A stretch of 64,000 nucleotides of DNA from Axinella damicornis (taxonomy: Eukaryota; Porifera; Demospongiae; Axinellida; Axinellidae). A model generated the notes under the pieces. That model saw nothing but the letters and a program-made list of their open reading frames with translations. It made no database searches and was not told where the DNA came from. A program made the translations under genes and the position numbers. The stretch spans positions 9,858,464 through 9,922,463 of the forward strand of contig OZ007516.1 in NCBI GenBank assembly GCA_963931865.1, read 5' to 3'. Within the stretch, counting starts at the first letter, position 1; the number at the start of each line of letters is the position of its first letter. This document shows positions 12,626-23,595 of the stretch, in pieces.

Positions 12626-13013
12626 TAGTCTCGGAACCAGACCCTTCGTGCGGGGGAGGAGGAAAGGGTCTGGGCACGTTCCTACATTCGAGTTGTCCTC
12701 ACGGAACGTAATTATGCGTGGTAATTAGCGATCAACTGCGATACCACGCGTACGATCACAGTCGACTTGCTCGTTGCTCTCCTCGACTTGTCAGTCACTC
12801 GCGGGTAACGCGGTACGGCACAGCGATTCGCCATGTCTAGTCACTCACTGGCGACACAGAAAGCCTGGAGAAAAATCATTTCCCTGACGTCATTCGCAAT
12901 CAACGCTTCTGATTCGTTAGGTCAACATTCCGACCTGGGGACAACTCGAATGTAAGATGGTGCCCAGACCCTTTCCTCCTCCCCCACCTGAAGGGTCTGG
13001 TTTTCCGAGACTA
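12626..13013. mobile_element. Mutator-like MITE inserted 9 bp inside the integrase transposon's left end
   Basis: Termini TAGTCTCGGAACCAGACCCTT and AAGGGTCTGGTTTTCCGAGACTA flank a 388-bp element. The exact 9-bp duplication TGTAGCAGC at 12617-12625 and 13014-13022 consists of the first 9 bases of the host transposon. A 9-bp target duplication is characteristic of Mutator-like elements. It is younger than the transposon it hit and may block its transposition by displacing the left tip. Confidence 0.92.
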
Positions 13014-13172
13014 TGTAGCAGCCCCATTAGGGCGGTTGCCGCGTTAGGGCATCCGCTATGAATGCAATTAAAATCCGCCGCGTTCGTCCGGATGCTGCCC
13101 TAATCGGGCAAACCGACAGTCATAAGCGCCCTGCTAACATGGATAGGCGCCAAGCGTGCATTGCATGGTGTA
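13014..13172 (+). repeat. Left terminal inverted repeat of the integrase transposon
   Basis: This 159-bp repeat matches the reverse complement of 23418-23576 with only a handful of differences (for example GCTATGAATG versus GTTATGAATG). It contains two palindromic blocks, CCCCATTAGGGC and GCCCTAATCGGGCA, that recur in the internal satellite. The first nine bases are duplicated by the MITE insertion, so the original tip is at 12617. Confidence 0.95.
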
Positions 13173-13353
13173 CGTACTACATGCTTACCAAAGAGGATAC
13201 GCATCCTTGCTAGTACCACAGTTGAGCTCAGCATGCAATAATGATATATTCAGGCACCCTTAACCATGCAGGTGAGCACTATAGCTAAAGGAAACGTGCT
13301 GCAACCTGCGTGCATGGTTGTGGTTATAGATATGAATGAATGAATTGAACTAG

Positions 13354-13440
13354 ACTGGATTGCAATGCACATTTTTTTTGCTCTGCCCTAATTGGGCACC
13401 CCTTGCATCCAGCCTGGTCGACAGTACAACATGATGGCTT
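13354..13440 (-). repeat. Single inverted satellite monomer in the left arm
   Basis: The stretch GGATTGCAATGCACAT ... CTGCCCTAATTGGGCACCC ... CAGCCTGGTCGACAGTA is a diverged, inverted partial monomer of the right-arm satellite (21318-23300). It gives the transposon matching subterminal sites on both sides, one on the left and about fourteen on the right. Confidence 0.75.
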
Positions 13441-14040
13441 GATATAAACTACCTCAGTCATGCTTGTCACACTCATAGGGTATGAAGTCTTGCAGTTGAT
13501 TAACATTGCTAAAGGCTGTTGTCACCAAGTTGCACAGAAGGAATTAGCTATACTAATGCATTGTAATTGTTTTGTGTGAATGGGATTTGGTTACTTTGTG
13601 TACTCAGTGACTCGGTGCATGATTCTTTGTGCAGTGATTCTTTTGTGCAGTGATTCTTTGTGCAGTGATGCTTTGAGTATTGTTTTTTTGTGTTATAGCA
13701 CTGGCTAAGCTCTGTTCTATGGCTCAATCCTTTGTGTATTGTTAGGTTTGGCCTCGCCCTTGTATGGGTGTGCTGTGTAAGATATATTGAAAACTCAGTA
13801 GTCAGTTGCTTGGCTTTGCTACAGCTCTTATGAATGTTAATTCTCCTCTACCCTTTTGACAGCTGAATGGCTTATAATCAATTAATGTGAATCAATAGAT
13901 TGGATAGAGATAGCCAAATCATTTTCTAACAGTAAGCAACTGCAACTGACATGTGACGTCGATGTTTGGTCCCAAGTTGTTGCGAGGTAGCTAGTTCCAT
14001 GCATCGAAGTGCCTTGTAACATAGTAGAGAGTGCCTTGAA

Positions 14041-17000
14041 ATGGATGACTCTGAGGATGAGAATGGTAAGTAATGTAGTCAAACTAAATCCACTTGGCAT
14101 TGGAAATTGATATAATTATGGATAACTACCTCTATCTATTTGGAAGATTGTTTTTTTTCCTAACATAATTTGAAACACAGAGGCTCCTCACGGTGTGGTG
14201 GATAACAAAAGGTCTACTAGAAATCGAGGGCCCATGACCAAAGAGACGTATGAAAACATTTGGAAGTTTTTGAAAGGAAACCCAGGAATTGAGGTTTCAG
14301 TTACTGAATTTGCTGTTACTAACAGGAAAGTCCTTTTTGATCAAGGATCGCATGCCCGCCCTAAATTTCATCTGGGTATAGATTCTTCTAATGTTGAGGT
14401 ACTCTACAAGGTTGTTAGGGGACAGAATAAAGTTGTTCTTTACAAAGAGCAAGCGGAAGACAGGATCAAAGACATGCACCGCCCCAATGGGTCAGCCTGT
14501 ACAGCTATGGGAGCTAGGAAACTAGAGAAAACCTTTAGTGCCACATACTTTGTGAATGATGTACGACGACTTGTTCAAGAAACTTTGGACAAGTGTACGG
14601 GTAGATGCAAAGTGATGAAAACTCTAAGTGTTTCTGCACCTCCTCCAAAACCAGTCCGTACCTCCTACATAATGGAAAGGGTTCAGATGGATTTATTGCA
14701 GATATATGGCCCCAAAAGCCCTTTCAGTTCTGAAAGTGGTCACAACTATCGCCTTATCCTTTCAGTTATGGACTGCTTTAGTAAGTATTGCTGGTTGGCA
14801 CCTCTCCAAACTAAACAGACAGTTGAGGTAGCCAATGGACTTTGTGCAATCTTTAAGCAGTTTGGTTGCCCACACATACTTCATTCTGATAATGGTGGGG
14901 AATTTGTGTCAAATGTCACACAAATTCTTTGCTCCCAATTAAACATTAAAGTGATTCATGGGAGGCCTTACCACCCCCAGTCACAAGGGCAAGTTGAGAA
15001 CCTTAACAAAAGAGTGAAAAGAGCTCTGGTCTCGATGCTTTTGAAGTTCAAGAAAGATGATCAGGCTAAGATTTGGCCATCAATCTTGTGTGAAGTAGCA
15101 CAGCTGCTGAACAATACATTTAATAATGCTATTAAGGATATTCCATTCAGAGTATTCTTTGGTCGTGACTCTGGCCATTTTGGTTTGAACAACACATTTG
15201 GCCTATGGCCATCTGATGAGGAGCTGTTGCACCAAGGTGAGCTGCATACCACTAAACGACAACAACCAGAGAACACTGATGAAGCTGTTGTAGACATTCT
15301 GGACGACAACGACTTTGACATGTGTGTTGATTGCGATCCATCTGAAATCCGTGAATATAAAACAGAAGAATGTTTAAGCAGCGTATGTACTGCTGACATA
15401 TTTCTTGAGCTTTGCCGTGCTCGTGATGAAGTACAACGAAGGACAGTTGAAAACCTTGAACATAATGCCTTAAAAAATCATGTGGCTTACATTAAGAAGG
15501 CAGGTAAAGGTAGACATTTCACTGCTGGGCAAGAAGTTTTGTTCCCTAATCCCCAACAGCAAGGGCTGGTTAAAATCCTGAACACAAAGGGACGTATAGT
15601 GGATGCCCTCTCAGGTGACTACTATCATGTGTCGTTTGCTACAAATGATGAATGTGACAGTACTAGTGCTGAACCACATCAGAGTATTGCCCTCCATGCT
15701 TCCAGTTTGACTGCATACCTGACAAAGGAAACACCGGAACATATGGATGAGCCGGCAGGAAAGTGCAGAGATATTAACATTACAGATCAAATAGCACGGA
15801 TGGCAGACATTCAGCGTCTGAAGTTCTACAAATTAAAGCGAAATCAAACAGGAGTGCGCAAAGATGTCAATGCAGTCAAAGTACTAAACAATGCATTCTC
15901 CTTCCTTCACCAAACTGACACTACAATGTTTGATAACAGTCAGAATAGTCTGATGGAACTCTTTGTGTACCATCTTGACCTTCTGCTCCTTGCGGATATT
16001 ACTGATAACAAGGAAATCCAAACAAACCTTTTACAGTCTGTTGACACAATTGAAACTGCATTAAACACTAGTGGGTTCTGTTACTATCTTTCTGGTGTAC
16101 ATGCCTGGGAAACTTCAAGACACAGGAATCACATTCACCTGGAGTATGCATACAAAAATGCAGTAATTCCTGTGTTTATTTCAAGTAACCATTCTTGCGT
16201 AGACTGCCTCAAGAGTGGACCATGTACTCACCTTTGTTGCTATAAGTGGTATATAAACCTGGGAATTAAAAGTGGGCTTGTCGAGCGCAGTGGAGAGAAC
16301 CTGAAACTGAAGGTAGATGCTGCTTTTAAACATACAGAGCCCTGTACTTTATCTACATCTGATTCAATATGTTCTGTGTCAGAGGCTCTATCACTAGCAT
16401 CTGGGAGCAGGAAAAGGCCTCTTGTGTATAACGGAGACATCAACCAGACTGCCAAAAAACTTAAATGTTCTACCATTACCAAGAAACACACAAAGAAGAA
16501 AGCAAAAGAAACCAACCAAAAGCCCAAAGGGTTGTCGAAGCAATTGCTTGTGAAGTATAAATCTGAGACAACATCGATGCAAAAGACCATACATGTGGGT
16601 AAATACGTCTTTAAGAATCGATTGAGCACTATTCAAGTCATGATTGCTGGTCACCTGCAATGCTGGAATGATATAAGTGATGAACAGAAGAAGCATTTGT
16701 ATATTAATGTCAAATACTTTCATGACATAGTTGGCAATCATGCAAGTCAGTCAATACAGAAACAGGTTTCCTGCTGTAATTCACAACCTTGGATGCAATT
16801 CCAAGTATGTTCTGCATACTGTGGGCTATGTGCCCTTAACAATGCCTACGGTCAGGAGAGGTTTACTGTTGAACAATTGGACAATATAGCTGATGAGCTG
16901 TACCTAAGACAAATTGAACAGCTAGGTATGTCTCTCATTAATGAGCTCCAGATCCAGAGAAATATTAGTGGGTTCTACTCTGTAGACACTCTTTGCAAAG

Positions 17001-19125
17001 CTGTATCAGAAATGGGGGATGTCTTGGTGGATATTGATTTGACAGTTAAACAGATTGTTTCAGAAAACGTGAACCAAGACGACTTTTTAACAGAGTTTGT
17101 CTCAAAAGTCAACCCCCCATGCTCCCTTATTCTTGTCTGGAGAGAGAAAAATCATTATACATGTGTAAACATTCATTCTGGGGCATGCGCAGTATGGCAT
17201 CTCAACTCTTTGAAGACAAAGGCACAGATATTAATGTCTCGCCAATTGAAGACAATATTTCAGGGAGTTGAAGTGATCTGTTCTGATGGGACTATTATTA
17301 ACAACCTTCATGTGTTTCTTTTGGAGAGATCACAAAGACAGTCTAAACAGCCATTGCACATGCATCATATTGCTAAAGAACAACACAGCATTGAAGGTAA
17401 AATAGCAGCTAGAGTGACCACCTTTCACTTCCAAATTATTCTTGCAGATGTAAAGCTTGGAGAACAGAGGGCAGTCATTGCCTAGCTATATTATGTAAGT
17501 CCATTTGTCACATTCTGCATGCATCTCTTTTGCATGTCCTTGCAGTGCCAAGTAAAGATGATGCTCAATTATTAACAACCAAGAGTGTTGCATTCCCTCA
17601 ACATACTACACAAGCATCTGCAACAGTTTTTGTAACTCCACTAAATGTCATTCGTCAGACACACAGAAAATTTCACCAAGAAACCCCAGGTATCTTTTTA
17701 TAGGTATGTAGACTGCATGTCACCTGCTAAACTTATACCATTTTGCCATATAGATACTCAACTAATGAAACATAATCCTCCAAGCAGCGGGACAAACACT
17801 GCGGTAATTGCTGGAAACATGTAGTTACACTATAAATAAATACATTTATACCCACTTCTAAATTCACAGATCCAAGTTGATGAATCACCTTCTATCACAG
17901 TGCTGTGCAAGAAATGCCATACACACTACCCACTGCGGCAAGCACGGAACCATGCAAGCAAATGCATTCATGAAGTTACAGTGCCAAGGTTGTGTGCATA
18001 TAGTAGCTATGTATTAAAAATGTAATATTGCAGCCATTCAGGTCTTTTTTATCAGCCTTTCTTGGTTGTTATCTGTTAAATTTCCTTTTAGCATCAATCT
18101 TGCCTCCACGGCCAAAGTTCCACAATGTGATGTGGTTACCGCATCCTGTGAATCAAGTCAAACTCATCGTTGTTCACCACTGATATCAAGAACTCACAGT
18201 GAAGAAACTCAGTATTGTAATAGTAAGTAGCTGTAACAAAACCACTGCTGCTATGTAACTCATTTGAATGCATTTGTGTAGGTCCTGTCCCTCAGCCTAC
18301 AGTGAAAGCAAGTGCCACAATCTTGGAATATCTTCCTCTGAAGCAGTGCAAACTGTCTGCAAGTGATCTGAGACTTGTTGCCTATGGACGTGCTTTGAAT
18401 GACCATGTAATCAGAGTTCACGACTGTTGCATCAGGTTATATTATGTTCCATAATCAGATTTTGATACATACCTCGCAGGTGATCAACTTCTTCATGCAC
18501 CTTGTTAATGAAGCAGAGAAAAAAAGACATGAAGAAGTGAGTATTCATTACTGATTGAAGAACATTCCATTCATATATCAGGTTTGTTCTTATATCGCAG
18601 CTACACACTTAATGTGAGGGGAGGAAAAAGAGCTTTGTGTACCACCTCTTTCTTTTATGAATCTGTGATGCGACTAAAGGGTGGACAGAAAGGGTATTCT
18701 AGGAAGACAGTGGCAGCTCACATCAAGGTAGTCTACATGGCATCAACTGCTCAATTAATAGAAATGATAGACACTTCTTTGCAACAACATTCACAGGGGA
18801 AAATAACAGACCTCTCTCGTCTCTTAGTACCTATCAATTTTGGAGGATACCATTGGATTCTCCTGGTAAGGTGTATAGGGTTCTGTATGCATGGTGATGC
18901 TTATCTCATTCAGTATGCACATAGGTGTACGACTTTGATAAGCGGAAAGTCAAGAGTCTCGACTCCCTTAATTCTACTTCCAGCCATGCGCAACATGTGT
19001 CGAGCATAAGGTTAGCATAAGTGCACGTATTTCACTCTGTCCAGTTTGCACGACTTGTAACTGCATGTCTCTCCCCCCCCCCCCCCCCCCCCCCTTACCT
19101 TCCCCCACCCCCCCCCCCCTTACCT

Positions 19126-19158
<33 letters not shown>

Positions 19159-20887
19159 ACACACACACACACACACACCCAAAAGCCACTTCTTGAATAC
19201 CTTTTTGAAGATGAAGGCTATAGGCAGAATGTGGATGAATGGAACATTAAGCTTGTGAATGTAAGCATCCACTGCAAAATGAGTATTGATTTAATCAGTT
19301 TTACACTTGCATGATGTATACAGGATCTACCTCAGCAGGAGCCCCACAGTGTTGACTGTGGTGTGTTTGTTTGCAAGGTATTAATGATACTCTGCTGTGC
19401 ATAGTGCATGTACAATTGGATAAAGAAATCTGATTGTTGTTGTCAGTTTGCAGAGTGTGCGATTTGCAAGGACAACTTCCAATTTAGTGGAGATGCTGAT
19501 GTCCTCAGAAAATGGTTACTGCATGAGCTCATGACAAGGTTATATTACATCCGACATAGATGGAAGTGATTGTAATTAAATGTATGTATGTGGCATTTCA
19601 TATTAAAGCATCATCCATTTCAGCCCAAACTTGAGTGAATCGTTCATTAAAGGAGAAGGGTATGAAGAAGTTGTTGAAGAGTTCATGGAAGCCAGCACCA
19701 CAGAGGTACACATGATTATGTGTTCCCATATGTTAGAAAATAGATTAATCTGCTGATGAAATACTCTTCCAACCGTATTCCACCAAACTAATTTTATGGG
19801 TTGCTCTATTCTTTAGTTTAACCATTCCAAACTTCAAGAATACATCATTCAACACCATTCAGGTTACCACCATAAACTTCATTTTAGTCAAACAGGATAA
19901 AATACTGAGTTGATGATTGTTTGGTCATTGCCATTCAGCTGATGATGCACCAGACGACGAGCAAATATCAAGCTCTGAGTCAGAAGATGAACAAACTTTA
20001 CCCCAGATTGGTACATTGCACATTAACTTTCTTTACTGTTGTCAGTAAGCAGTAACAATCTTATGTCCATTACTGTTCACAGATGAAGGTGACATACTTA
20101 TTCCGGACATCTGGCCAGAAATTGCTACAGAAGACATGATATTTCACTCAACCACACCGAAAAGTTCTTATATGAGGGCTGTGAAGAAATTTCTGTCTTC
20201 TTCTACTAATGGTATCCCAATCAGGTGAAGTACTGCTATCAGTTTGTTGTACCATTAACTTACAGTCCTTTGTTTAGTTACTGTACATTGTTCTTGATTC
20301 TCAGAGATGGAAATATTGAGAGGAGTAAAATACACGCAGCATTGAAAAATGCAGAAGTGAGTATTTTCCTGCGTATGATCAGTTATAGCAACACAAATCA
20401 AGGTTATAGAGACTTGTTACTATCATTGCTGCAGGGTCATCTAAGGGACGTGGCCTGTAACCCGCAAAGCTCCTCCTATTATACCAACCTTGCCAAGTGT
20501 AGTTCCAGGAGAGCGACCTGGTTGCCAATGGACACTTGGCCTCTGTCGAATCCAATAATTGTAATTTTTTTAACAATGCCAAGAGGCATAATAAATAAAC
20601 CACACACACACTTAAAGTTGTTGTTTTTTTGTTACAGGTTAATGAGGTATTGTACTTTCTTCGTGCCATTGCGGATGGTCAAAAAGAAACCAGAAAGCAC
20701 TCAATTTCTCCTACATTACTGTCATCTGAGGTGTTATGGCCTGAGGTAAATGCACCAGTATCCCTGTATTCGTAACTGTGCATTAATACCGTTCATCTAA
20801 TTGCATGTACACGTATGTACTCAGGCAATGGCTGCTATTGTACAGCAAAACAAAGCAAGTGAAACTGTGATTAAGAACAGAGACTAG
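14041..20887 (+). CDS. Integrase-Josephin-zinc finger-Ulp1 (C48) polyprotein, 21 exons
   Basis: Exon 1 is 14041-14065 (MDDSEDEN); exon 2 (14181-17396) carries most of the protein. The integrase core has D in RVQMDLLQIYG, D in LHSDNGGEF and E in GQVENLNKR (spacing 65 and 35 residues), preceded by a degenerate H2C2 region. A chromo/SH3-like strand block (FTAGQEVLFP) follows, then a Cys-rich block, a basic NLS-like stretch and a Josephin domain: nucleophile in YCGLCALNN, His in KNHYTC, Asn in WHLNS. Exons 3-6 add a C2HC finger (LCKKCHTHYPLRQARNHASKC). Exons 7-14 encode an Ulp1 fold with GGYHWILL, VYDFD and PQQEPHSVDCGVFVCK. Exons 15-21 end at TAG 20885. Phases agree at every junction except exon 11/12 (19010/19186). 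Length is about 1,650 residues. Predicted roles are DNA integration plus removal of ubiquitin and SUMO-type modifiers. Confidence 0.85.
17397..17545 (+). other. Optional intron deciding whether the C48 protease is attached
   Basis: Donor GAAG|GTAAAA and acceptor CCTTGCAG|TGCC give an in-phase 149-bp intron joining the Josephin exon to exon 3. If it is retained, the frame stays open for 29 codons and stops at TAG 17483-17485, making an integrase-Josephin protein alone. A shorter in-frame intron (17397-17447) could also be removed and reaches the same stop. Two products from one gene are therefore possible. Confidence 0.55.
19073..19178. repeat. Poly(C) tracts and (CA)n at a splice acceptor
   Basis: Three C runs interrupted by TTACCTT-type spacers lead into about eleven CA repeats, ending 7 bp before the apparent acceptor AAAAG|CCACTT of the C48 exon. 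Expansion here has probably altered the natural acceptor, because this is the only junction where phases disagree. Confidence 0.85.
20356..20640. other. Intron with an embedded AT-rich repeat
   Basis: This intron separates exons ending ALKNAE and starting VNEVLY; both splice sites are canonical. The open stretches inside it are intronic. The sequence around 20430-20560 looks like a small inserted repeat, but no terminal repeats are obvious. Confidence 0.5.
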
Positions 20888-21317
20888 TACTCAAGAATAT
20901 GTAGCTAGTTGTATTGATTATTATTCTACACTGAACATTTGTGCATGTTTGATTACTTAGATGGTTTACCCTACATGTTTCACACAAAGCGTATTAGTTT
21001 CTGGTATGTCTGGTCAGCTGCAGCCTGCATTATATTAAAGTCATGGTTTGTATAATTGTGAATGTTTCATTGATTTGGTTCACTTTTCCAGCCAGTGTAT
21101 GTAAAGTACATGTTTTGTGCAAAGTTTAATTTACTCTCGTAATGACATTAATTTTCAACGTGCACAAGCAAACACATGGGGTTAGCAGCAACACTGCATG
21201 GAGGTTAGGAGTTAACAGTAGTAGTAGTAGTAAAAAGATGACTGTATAAGGATCGTCAATTATAGATAGTGGTGATTCTGCAGTATGCTAACAACTGTCT
21301 GAATGCAACCTGCAGCA
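20888..21317. other. 3' flank of the integrase gene
   Basis: AT-rich sequence follows the stop codon, with ATTAAA-like polyadenylation candidates near 21030-21040. A short (AGT)n run is at 21218-21232. No other feature is visible before the satellite begins. Confidence 0.5.
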
Positions 21318-23300
21318 GTTTCCATACCTCACTTGCCCTAATGGGGCAGACCTGGTTGAGGGTGCCGGATTAGGGCAGAGCTAGAAATGTGCATTGCAAT
21401 CCAGTTAATAACATTAACATTGACCAGGCTGTAGCAGTTTCCATACATCACTTGCCCTAATGGGGCAGACCTGGCTGAGGGTGCCCGATTAGGGCAGAAC
21501 TAGAAATGTGCACTGCAATCCAGTTAATATCAAGCTATAACATTAACGTTGACCAGGCTGTAGCAGTTTCCATACCTCACTTTCCCTAATGGGGCAGACC
21601 TGGCTGAGGGTGCCCAATTAGGGCAGAACTAGAAATGTGCACTGCAATCCAGACTATATCAAGCTATAACATTAATGTTGACCAGGCTGTAGCAGTTTCC
21701 ATACATCACTTGCCCTAATGGGGCAGACCTGGCTGAGGGTGCCCGATTAGGGCAGAACTAGAAATGTGCACTGCAATCCAGTTAATATCAAGCTATAACA
21801 TTAACGTTGACCAGGCTGTAGCAGTTTCCATACATCACTTGCCCTAATGGGGCAGACCTGGCTGAGGGTGCCCAATTAGGGCAGAACTAGAAATGTGCAT
21901 TGCAATCCAGACTATATCAAGCTATAACATTAACGTTGACTAGGCTGTAGCAGTTTCCATACATCACTTGCCCTAATGGGGCAGACCTGGCTGAGGGTGC
22001 CCAATTAGGGCAGAACTAGAAATGTGCACTGCAATCCAGTTAATATCAAGCTATAACATTAACGTTGACCAGGCTGTAGCAGTTTCCATACATCACTTTC
22101 CCTAATGGGGCAGACCTGGCTGAGGGTGCCCAATTAGGGCAGAACTAGAAATGTGCACTGCAATCCAGACTATATCAAGCTATAACATTAACGTTGACCA
22201 GGCTGTAGCAGTTTCCATACATCACTTGCCCTAATGGGGCAGACCTGGCTGAGGGTGCCCGATTAGGGCAGAACTAGAAATGTGCACTGCAATCCAGTTA
22301 ATATCAAGCTATAAATAATGTTGCAGACCTGACTGAGGGTGCCCAATTAGGGCAGAGCTAGATAGAAATGTGCACTGCAATCCAGCACTCATAGTTTGTA
22401 TCAAGCTACAGTGTTAACGTTGTCCAGGCTGTTACAGTAGCAGTTTCCATACCTCACTTGCCCTAATGGGGCAGACCTGGCTGAGGGTGCCGGATTAGGG
22501 CAGAGCTAGAAATGTGTACTGCAATCCAGTTAATATCACATTAACGTTGACCAGGCTGTAGCAGTTTCCATACCTCACTTGCCCTATAATGTGGCAGGCC
22601 TGACTGATCGAGGGTGCCGGATTAGGGCAGAGCTAGATAGAAATGTGCATTGCAATCCAGCACTCATAGTTTGCGTCAAGCTACAGTGTTAATATTGACC
22701 AGGCTGCAGCAGTTTCCATACCTCATTTGCCCTAATGGGGCAGACCTGGCTGAGGGTGCCCGATTAGGGCAGAACTAGAAATGTGCACTGCAATCCAGTT
22801 AATATCAAGCTATAAATAATGTTGCAGACCTGACTGAGGGTGCCCAATTAGGGCAGAGCTAGATAGAAATGTGCACTGCAATCCAGCACTCATAGTTTGT
22901 ATCAAGCTACAGTGTTAACGTTGTCCAGGCTGTTACAGTAGCAGTTTCCATACCTCACTTGCCCTAATGGGGCAGACCTGGCTGAGGGTGCCGGATTAGG
23001 GCAGAGCTAGAAATGTGTACTGCAATCCAGTTAATATCACATTAACGTTGACCAGGCTGTAGCAGTTTCCATACCTCACTTGCCCTATAATGTGGCAGGC
23101 CTGACTGATCGAGGGTGCCGGATTAGGGCAGAGCTAGATAGAAATGTGCATTGCAATCCAGCACTCATAGTTTGCGTCAAGCTACAGTGTTAATATTGAC
23201 CAGGCTGCAGCAGTTTCCATACCTCATTTGCCCTAATAGGGCAGACCTGGCTGAGGCTGCCCGATTAGGGCAGAACTAGAAATGTGCACTGCAATCCAGC
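21318..23300 (+). repeat. Subterminal satellite, about 130-bp monomer, about 14 copies
   Basis: Each monomer reads CAGTTTCCATAC..TCAC, TTGCCCTAATGGGGCAGACC, TGAGGGTGCCCGATTAGGGC, AGAAATGTGCACTGCAATCC. Copies start at about 21318, 21435, 21565, 21694, 21824, 21951, 22079, 22208, 22441, 22562, 22709, 22945, 23065 and 23210, plus two partial units. Each full monomer carries two palindromes of type TGCCCNATTAGGGCA. The same palindrome occurs in the terminal inverted repeats. The block 22208-22708 is repeated almost exactly at 22709-23209, a 501-bp higher-order unit. Confidence 0.93.
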
Positions 23301-23417
23301 ACTCATAGTAACATTGTTGTGTGTTACTAGTAGTAACACACAACTATATGCAGGTTGCAGCAGGTTTCCTTTCATATTGCTCACCTGGTTGAAGGTGCCT
23401 AAATATTATGGATATAG

Positions 23418-23576
23418 TACACCATGCAATGCACGCTTGGCGCCTATCCATGTTAGCAGGGCGCTTATGACTGTCGGTTTGCCCGATTAGGGCAGCATCC
23501 GGACGAGCGCGGCGGATTTTAATTGCATTCATAACGGATGCCCTAACGCGGCAGCCGCCCTAATGGGGCTGCTACA
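23418..23576 (-). repeat. Right terminal inverted repeat of the integrase transposon
   Basis: Reverse complement of 13014-13172, ending GGGGCTGCTACA. It is followed immediately by the target duplication AACTAC (23577-23582) and receptor coding sequence (TATCTGCAGAATCAT). Confidence 0.95.
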
Positions 23577-23595
23577 AACTACTATCTGCAGAATC

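Follow-up and report, generated by a model that had tools for sequence, protein, structure and literature searches.

Ubiquitin and SUMO proteases recur on unrelated transposons; as enzyme families, Josephins cleave off ubiquitin and SENP-type proteases cleave off SUMO. The closest described system, Ginger1, combines an integrase-type transposase with introns and, in some families, a C-terminal Ulp1 domain, and its transposase carries OTU or Ulp1, never both (Bao, Kapitonov, Jurka 2010, PMC2836005). The same source names Mutator transposons with Ulp1, which employ another transposase and for which Josephin is not mentioned there. For Helitrons, which are rolling-circle Rep-helicase elements without an integrase, activity of the VTD protease has been shown, and 121 VTD-containing members also contain OTU domains, which sets a precedent for two ubiquitin proteases on one transposon; in the parts of that study available, neither Josephin nor Ulp1 is mentioned on these elements, and Josephins are named once, in a list of deubiquitinase classes (PMC9741609).

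Here we describe a 10.6-kb element (positions 13014-23576) in a 64,000-nucleotide stretch of the sponge Axinella damicornis (contig OZ007516.1, 9,858,464 to 9,922,463; hereafter the window, to whose 64 kb all positions without a contig name refer), which has been compared with the genome of 226 Mb in 120 contigs. An earlier note on this DNA had read one transposon gene that fuses a DDE integrase, a Josephin deubiquitinase and an Ulp1 protease. Judging from the terminal repeats, the target duplications and three copies in which all parts are found, it is almost certain that one integrase transposon holds the three domains, as had been claimed. The best explanation as a whole, which we favour with moderate confidence, is a Ginger-related transposon with one transposase and dual modifier removal. 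It shares the transposon-borne Ulp1 protease with the Mutator elements and the presence of two modifier-protease domains with the Helitrons, and differs from both in its transposase. Josephin thereby joins OTU, VTD and peptidase C19, the kinds of transposon-borne deubiquitinase named in PMC2836005 and PMC9741609, and an element with one protease of each type beside an integrase makes the role of such proteases testable.

The element, its copies and its predicted gene

At both ends of the element lie terminal inverted repeats, each 160 nt long and 98% complementary to the other. The bounded repeats of the earlier note have been found again, and the element is wider than the interval 14041-20887 assigned there. 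The 5' terminal repeat has 22 matches in the genome. Twelve of them, which can be joined into six pairs that retain both outer ends (window, C3 at 13.62 Mb and at 19.03 Mb, C4 at 19.58 Mb, C6, and C8), have served to read the target duplications, and the other ten, including the C9 and C11 elements with a truncated second end, have been left out for want of a partner or an outer end. The duplications are exact over 6 bp in three pairs and over 5 bp in two, and agree in four of five bases in the window, while none of 30 mismatched end pairings matches over 5 or 6 bp. At the 13.62-Mb insertion on C3, the flanks, joined over one duplication, align without the element to a stretch just outside the window's element, which represents an empty-site homologue. 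Together, terminal repeats, duplications and empty-site homologue identify a mobile DNA transposon with defined ends.

The gene region has been matched at eight places besides the window (C3 at 19.03 Mb, C8, C4 twice, C3 at 13.62 Mb, C1, C9 and C11), most of them internally deleted or truncated, and the integrase, Josephin and Ulp1 parts occur together in three copies, those of the window, C3 and C9. Recent movement is suggested by the C3 and C8 copies, whose long matching pieces share about 98% identity with the window; the remaining copies reach about 84-96% in most longer pieces. Two later insertions, one of about 350 bp and the other of about 6.3 kb, have entered the C3 copy (L005) where the gene model has introns.

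The integrase and Josephin parts lie in one open frame (14174-17485, 1103 aa). Its integrase core, called by the Pfam profile rve, finds its best match among solved structures in PFV integrase (E 7e-20), and the D-D-E residues pointed out in the earlier note are recovered at residues 173, 239 and 275, the second D and the E being separated by 35 residues (D35E). In the Josephin stretch (residues 881-1032), the motifs YCGLCALNN, KNHYTC and WHLNS are present and the cut-off of the Pfam profile is exceeded, so the failed profile call that the earlier note had named as a refutation has not occurred; the C-H-N set claimed before is upheld. The Cys, His, Asn triad looks intact; its residues have been assigned by analogy to ataxin-3, and also by likeness to the host ataxin-3-like stretches LCAQHCLNN and WFNLDSL. 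A genome search for Josephin, with six candidates scored, has yielded three places over the cut-off, namely the element, the C3 copy and one host ataxin-3-like exon on C11; the C9 copy also possesses a Josephin domain, but with frame lesions. The Ulp1 part (Peptidase_C48) has been read from exons 3-21 of the C3 copy, near-identical to the window, where it scores 78.7 bits (cut-off 20.7). Its best solved relative is SENP1, with which the HW, DF, QQ and DCG stretches (His, Asp, Gln, Cys) align, in agreement with the H-D-Q-C set noted earlier. The predicted catalytic residues are hence in place in integrase, Josephin and Ulp1, the last as read from C3. The C2HC finger of the earlier note is present in exon 5 as C-x2-C-x11-H-x3-C, but no Pfam family exceeds its cut-off there (best XAF1_C, 16.2 of 25.8 bits); its spacing presumably recalls UBZ4 ubiquitin-binding fingers, which have been called by no tool.

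In the host ataxin-3-like gene (L006, C11:1152001-1162000, minus strand), the Josephin motifs are spread over three open stretches, which introns would seem to separate. The gene has the motifs C..(.)LNN, SGF.S and L[ND]SL in common with the element, whereas the domain of the transposon lies in one exon and is distant in sequence. These two differences make a recent capture of the host gene unlikely.

A model of 21 exons fits exactly at 14041-20887, with GT..AG at 20 of 20 introns and consistent phases. The C3 copy keeps all 20 pairs, and its exons 3-21 form one open frame of 562 residues to the final stop; the older C9 copy lacks some of the splice sites, namely the exon 3 acceptor and both sides of exon 5. 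On this model, the exons would be spliced into a transposase of about 1640 residues, and we regard a single polypeptide as quite probable. Two genes or alternative transcripts, in which an integrase-Josephin protein would end in a retained second intron (stop 17483-17485) and exons 3-21 would encode a separate Ulp1 protein, appear unlikely, although the joint transcript is itself a prediction from genomic sequence. If the exon 2 donor goes unused, the large frame reads on to the stop at 17485; the C3 copy lacks this stop, yet meets another a few codons on, and the altered exon 3 acceptor of C9 would fit such an arrangement as well. However, the donor of exon 2 is in phase with the acceptor of exon 3, C3 keeps both, and no start region of a second gene has been noticed, a systematic search for one not having been made.

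Comparison with Ginger1 and other transposon groups

The likeness to Ginger1 is extensive enough that an ordinary Ginger1, whose target-site and motif differences would represent lineage drift, has to be considered, improbable as we find it. The 160-bp terminal repeats begin with TGTAG, within the length of about 40-270 bp and the TGTNR start described for Ginger1; the integrase core is of the Gypsy-type DDE form (rve 52.7 bits, D35E), and introns and a C-terminal Ulp1 domain are present (PMC2836005). Against it, the duplications measure 5-6 bp instead of 4 bp, and none of the six paired copies shows CCGG or CCGT. The first His and C-x3-C of the H2C2 finger remain, but the second His is missing when the element is aligned to the integrases L044, L045 and L048. 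The stretch that by eye seems to correspond to GPY/F reads KGRIV, as opposed to QGPYKIV in L044, and YPYY has not been recognised by eye in the large frame. Furthermore, the element measures 10.6 kb and possesses 20 introns, in contrast to about 2.6-7 kb and 0-4 introns in Ginger1, and Josephin falls outside the domains listed there (PMC2836005). Of the Ginger1 alternatives OTU and Ulp1 the element carries Ulp1, a SUMO-type protease, but it has the ubiquitin-type protease Josephin as well. As the CCGG-type duplication, the full H2C2 finger and the GPY/F motif all fail, we call the element Ginger-like without assigning it to a superfamily. Its predicted integrase-type transposase and TGT...ACA inverted repeats mark it as a probable member of a DNA transposon family of low copy number with kinship to the Ginger group.

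Other groups agree less well or in single features. The five exact duplications of 5-6 bp are not AT-rich, unlike the 4-5 bp duplications at AT-rich RTATAY targets of Ginger2/Tdd. IS3EU and GingerRoot are characterised by TA..TA termini, occasionally TG..CA in GingerRoot, and usual 6 bp duplications; the element has TG..CA ends, and 6 bp duplications in three of the six pairs. Both groups are without an HHCC finger, of which the element retains a part (His, Cys, Cys), and the words protease and Ulp1 are absent from the text of that study (PMC10045372). A Gypsy retrotransposon with long terminal repeats does not agree with the inverted ends, and no reverse transcriptase has been called in the large frame. 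Within the genome, 138 of 386 integrase candidates have been scored, most of which align at about 25-40% to that of the element, its own copies and a cousin on C9 aside. L044 aligns at 29% and is considered Gypsy-like because of stretches that by eye resemble reverse transcriptase and RNase H. NCBIfam has returned four matches, all below cut-off (IS481 with 81.6 bits of 224, IS3, IS30 and IS21), Pfam has called no family over cut-off on frame residues 80-156 and 360-849, and a scan of IMG/VR with the large frame has given five pattern matches and no confirmed relative. An inspection by eye of 12 Ulp1 places and the 138 scored integrase places for a second integrase-Ulp1 element has found the nearest pair about 24 kb apart; this comparison is insensitive, as Ulp1 exons as short as those of the window are unlisted.

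The novelty suggested in the earlier note holds within the literature searched. No Josephin transposon has been found among the matches listed for Josephin with transposons, integrases, transposases or Ulp1, in literature mostly outside subscription papers; "josephin" does not occur in the main text of PMC6431247, and "peptidase C48" is absent among the matches listed for literature on DNA transposons, integrases and sponges. Within this literature, including the statement that Ginger1 carries OTU or Ulp1 but not both (PMC2836005), the set of integrase, Josephin and Ulp1 is not reported. The kind to which it belongs, integrase transposons with modifier proteases, is already known, and the Helitrons with VTD and OTU (PMC9741609) precede it in the pairing of two proteases.

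Predicted role of the two proteases

In the window, 31 of 32 occurrences of GCCCTAAT or ATTAGGGC fall within the element, leaving one in the remaining 53.4 kb; they concentrate in a 2-kb array near the 3' end and are also found in the terminal repeats, and one may regard them as candidate binding sites of the transposase. In the mechanism that we favour, transposase function would fall to the integrase part, which would bind the motifs of ATTAGGGC type in both the terminal and the subterminal repeats, and would cut and paste the element with staggered cuts of 5-6 bp. Josephin would strip ubiquitin and Ulp1 would strip SUMO from the transposase, from proteins at the breaks in donor and target DNA, or from both. 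By this dual stripping, the element would counter SUMO-targeted ubiquitin ligases, which ubiquitinate SUMOylated chromatin proteins, and the transposase-DNA complex may escape being pulled off or degraded before repair; both activities could keep the transposase or repair proteins on the broken DNA. That modifiers are stripped from the integrase or from chromatin, as the earlier note had supposed, is plausible, and it is fairly likely that both proteases are active in the active form of the family.

Two described systems bear on this proposal. Host ataxin-3 is recruited to double-strand breaks in dependence on SUMOylation and opposes the SUMO-targeted ubiquitin ligase RNF4; both end joining and homologous recombination require it to be efficient (PMC5391139). 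For Ulp1 and OTU domains, Bao et al. have proposed a possible role in activating repair factors while transposition proceeds or afterwards (PMC2836005). The pathway of ubiquitin and SUMO ligases as the target can be put forward only tentatively. Still less likely, one may postulate that an integrase-transposon lineage outside Ginger1 has built a single transposase as eraser of ubiquitin and SUMO, an antidote to SUMO-targeted ubiquitin ligases with which the element would persist on chromatin through excision and repair.

Several observations weigh against one transposase with two working proteases. The joining of the exons is predicted from genomic sequence, and the protease activities are putative. 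An AlphaFold2 single-sequence model of the Josephin stretch has reached a pLDDT of 38.4 and lends no support to the fold, and a search of the PDB with this stretch has found no ataxin-3 chain. Among the copies examined, none is intact throughout: in C3 a lesion breaks the frame of exon 2, and C9 suffers from stops and changes in length as well as from altered splice sites at exons 3 and 5. The 21-exon structure of the earlier note stands in its splice sites but not as a reading frame of the window, whose exons 9-12, joined at the splice sites of the family, run out of frame with six internal stops because exons 9 and 12 differ in length from those of other copies. When alternative GT/AG sites up to 40 bases away are tried at introns 8 and 11, 12 of 588 combinations keep the whole frame open, so altered splicing could rescue it; that the Ulp1 part of this copy is damaged is probably the likelier case. 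For exons 3-21, selection is not significant in comparison with C3 (14 nonsynonymous and 7 synonymous changes, p 0.15). The lone PDB match of the Josephin stretch, sc-apCC-6-SLLA (E 0.25), has been taken as chance.

Protease domains taken up as passengers, with no part in transposition and by now in decay, would account for the frame lesions of the window, C3 and C9 copies and for the lack of significant selection on exons 3-21, and we consider this reading quite improbable. Between window and C3, there are 19 indels over the 1766 intron positions compared, but 4 over the 4902 positions belonging to exons 2-21 (p 3e-8), a count that leaves out exon 1 and the poly-C/CA tract at 19061-19179. The substitution rates of the same pair (introns 1.59%, exon 2 1.15%, exons 3-21 1.24%, 5' part 1.80%, 3' part 1.32%) differ much less between regions than the indel rates. 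Together with the phase-consistent model, the rarity of exon indels supports a gene. Exon 2 appears somewhat constrained, as nonsynonymous changes lie below their neutral share (23 to 14 synonymous against C3, p 0.015; 14 to 9 against C8, p 0.04). The catalytic residues are kept in both protease domains, and unrelated transposons repeatedly carry such proteases, Ginger1 having Ulp1 or OTU and Helitrons VTD or OTU (PMC2836005, PMC9741609). Nested insertions do occur in the family, as in the C3 copy. That two nested elements, an integrase-Josephin one and an Ulp1 one, have come together by chance is nevertheless disfavoured and very improbable, given that three copies at different sites show the same order within the same terminal repeats (one C9 end being truncated) and that the intron phases are consistent. 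Not all of these rivals exclude the Ginger-related transposon of dual modifier removal.

Feature coordinates and further observations

Table 1. Features of the element in the window, with positions, strand and basis.
Feature	Position	Strand	Basis
5' terminal inverted repeat (TGTAGC...)	13014..13173	+	complementary to 23417-23576; 22 genome matches
3' terminal inverted repeat (...GCTACA)	23417..23576	-	partner of 13014-13173
Probable target duplication, 5' side GACTA	13009..13013	.	3' side AACTA 23577-23581, 1 mismatch
Exon 1, start codon	14041..14065	+	gene model; found in C3, C9, C8 copies
Exon 2, integrase and Josephin, open frame without stop	14181..17396	+	gene model
Integrase core (Pfam rve, residues 169-268 of frame 14174-17485)	14678..14977	+	52.7 bits, cut-off 32.6
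Catalytic D 14690-14692, D 14888-14890, E 14996-14998	14690..14998	+	residues 173, 239, 275; D35E
Josephin deubiquitinase domain (profile 4-146 of 157)	16814..17269	+	34.5 bits frame search, 38.7 bits genome search, cut-off 26
Putative catalytic Cys 16820-16822, His 17153-17155, Asn 17204-17206	16820..17206	+	motif positions; same residues in C3 copy
Exon 3	17546..17689	+	gene model
Exon 4	17754..17803	+	gene model
Exon 5, finger	17870..17988	+	gene model
Exon 6	18092..18222	+	gene model
Exon 7, Ulp1 domain starts near exon end	18282..18406	+	gene model and profile
Exon 8 (Ulp1)	18480..18536	+	gene model
Exon 9 (Ulp1)	18601..18727	+	length unlike both other copies holding the exon whole; reading frame broken from this exon on if family splice sites are used
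Exon 10 (Ulp1, catalytic His in GGYHW)	18797..18865	+	gene model and SENP1 alignment
Exon 11 (Ulp1, catalytic Asp in VYDFD)	18925..19010	+	gene model and SENP1 alignment
Exon 12 (Ulp1)	19186..19260	+	length unlike all 5 other copies where found whole
Exon 13 (Ulp1, Gln and catalytic Cys, PQQ..DCGVF)	19324..19377	+	gene model and SENP1 alignment
Exon 14	19447..19538	+	gene model
Exon 15	19624..19705	+	gene model
Exon 16	19817..19862	+	gene model
Exon 17	19939..20010	+	gene model
Exon 18	20083..20224	+	gene model
Exon 19	20305..20356	+	gene model
Exon 20	20638..20745	+	gene model
Exon 21, stop codon	20825..20887	+	gene model
Subterminal array, mostly ~129-bp units, families D1-D6, with GCCCTAAT/ATTAGGGC motifs common to terminal repeats	21279..23311	.	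repeat analysis

Within intron 11, a poly-C and CA tract (19072-19177) lies just before the acceptor of exon 12, beside an exon of altered length. The subterminal array contains, at 22175-22975, two 300-bp blocks that are 501 bp apart and 97% identical, a sign of a larger duplication. Outside the element, inverted arms of 67 nt, 90% complementary and separated by 234 nt, occupy 12635-13002 and end 11 bases before the 5' terminal repeat.

The cousin of the integrase part on C9 (L047, L049, L050; C9:7387001-7398500) is old and riddled with stops, reaching 51% over about 80 residues and about 75-90% nucleotide identity in short pieces, and neither a Josephin nor an Ulp1 part has been found within its 11.5 kb. 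Another integrase relic (L046:1512-1940), which contains GRPRHPQSQGAVE, a stretch that we take to recall Ginger1/KRBA2-type proteins, lies beside a region of repetitive open frames.

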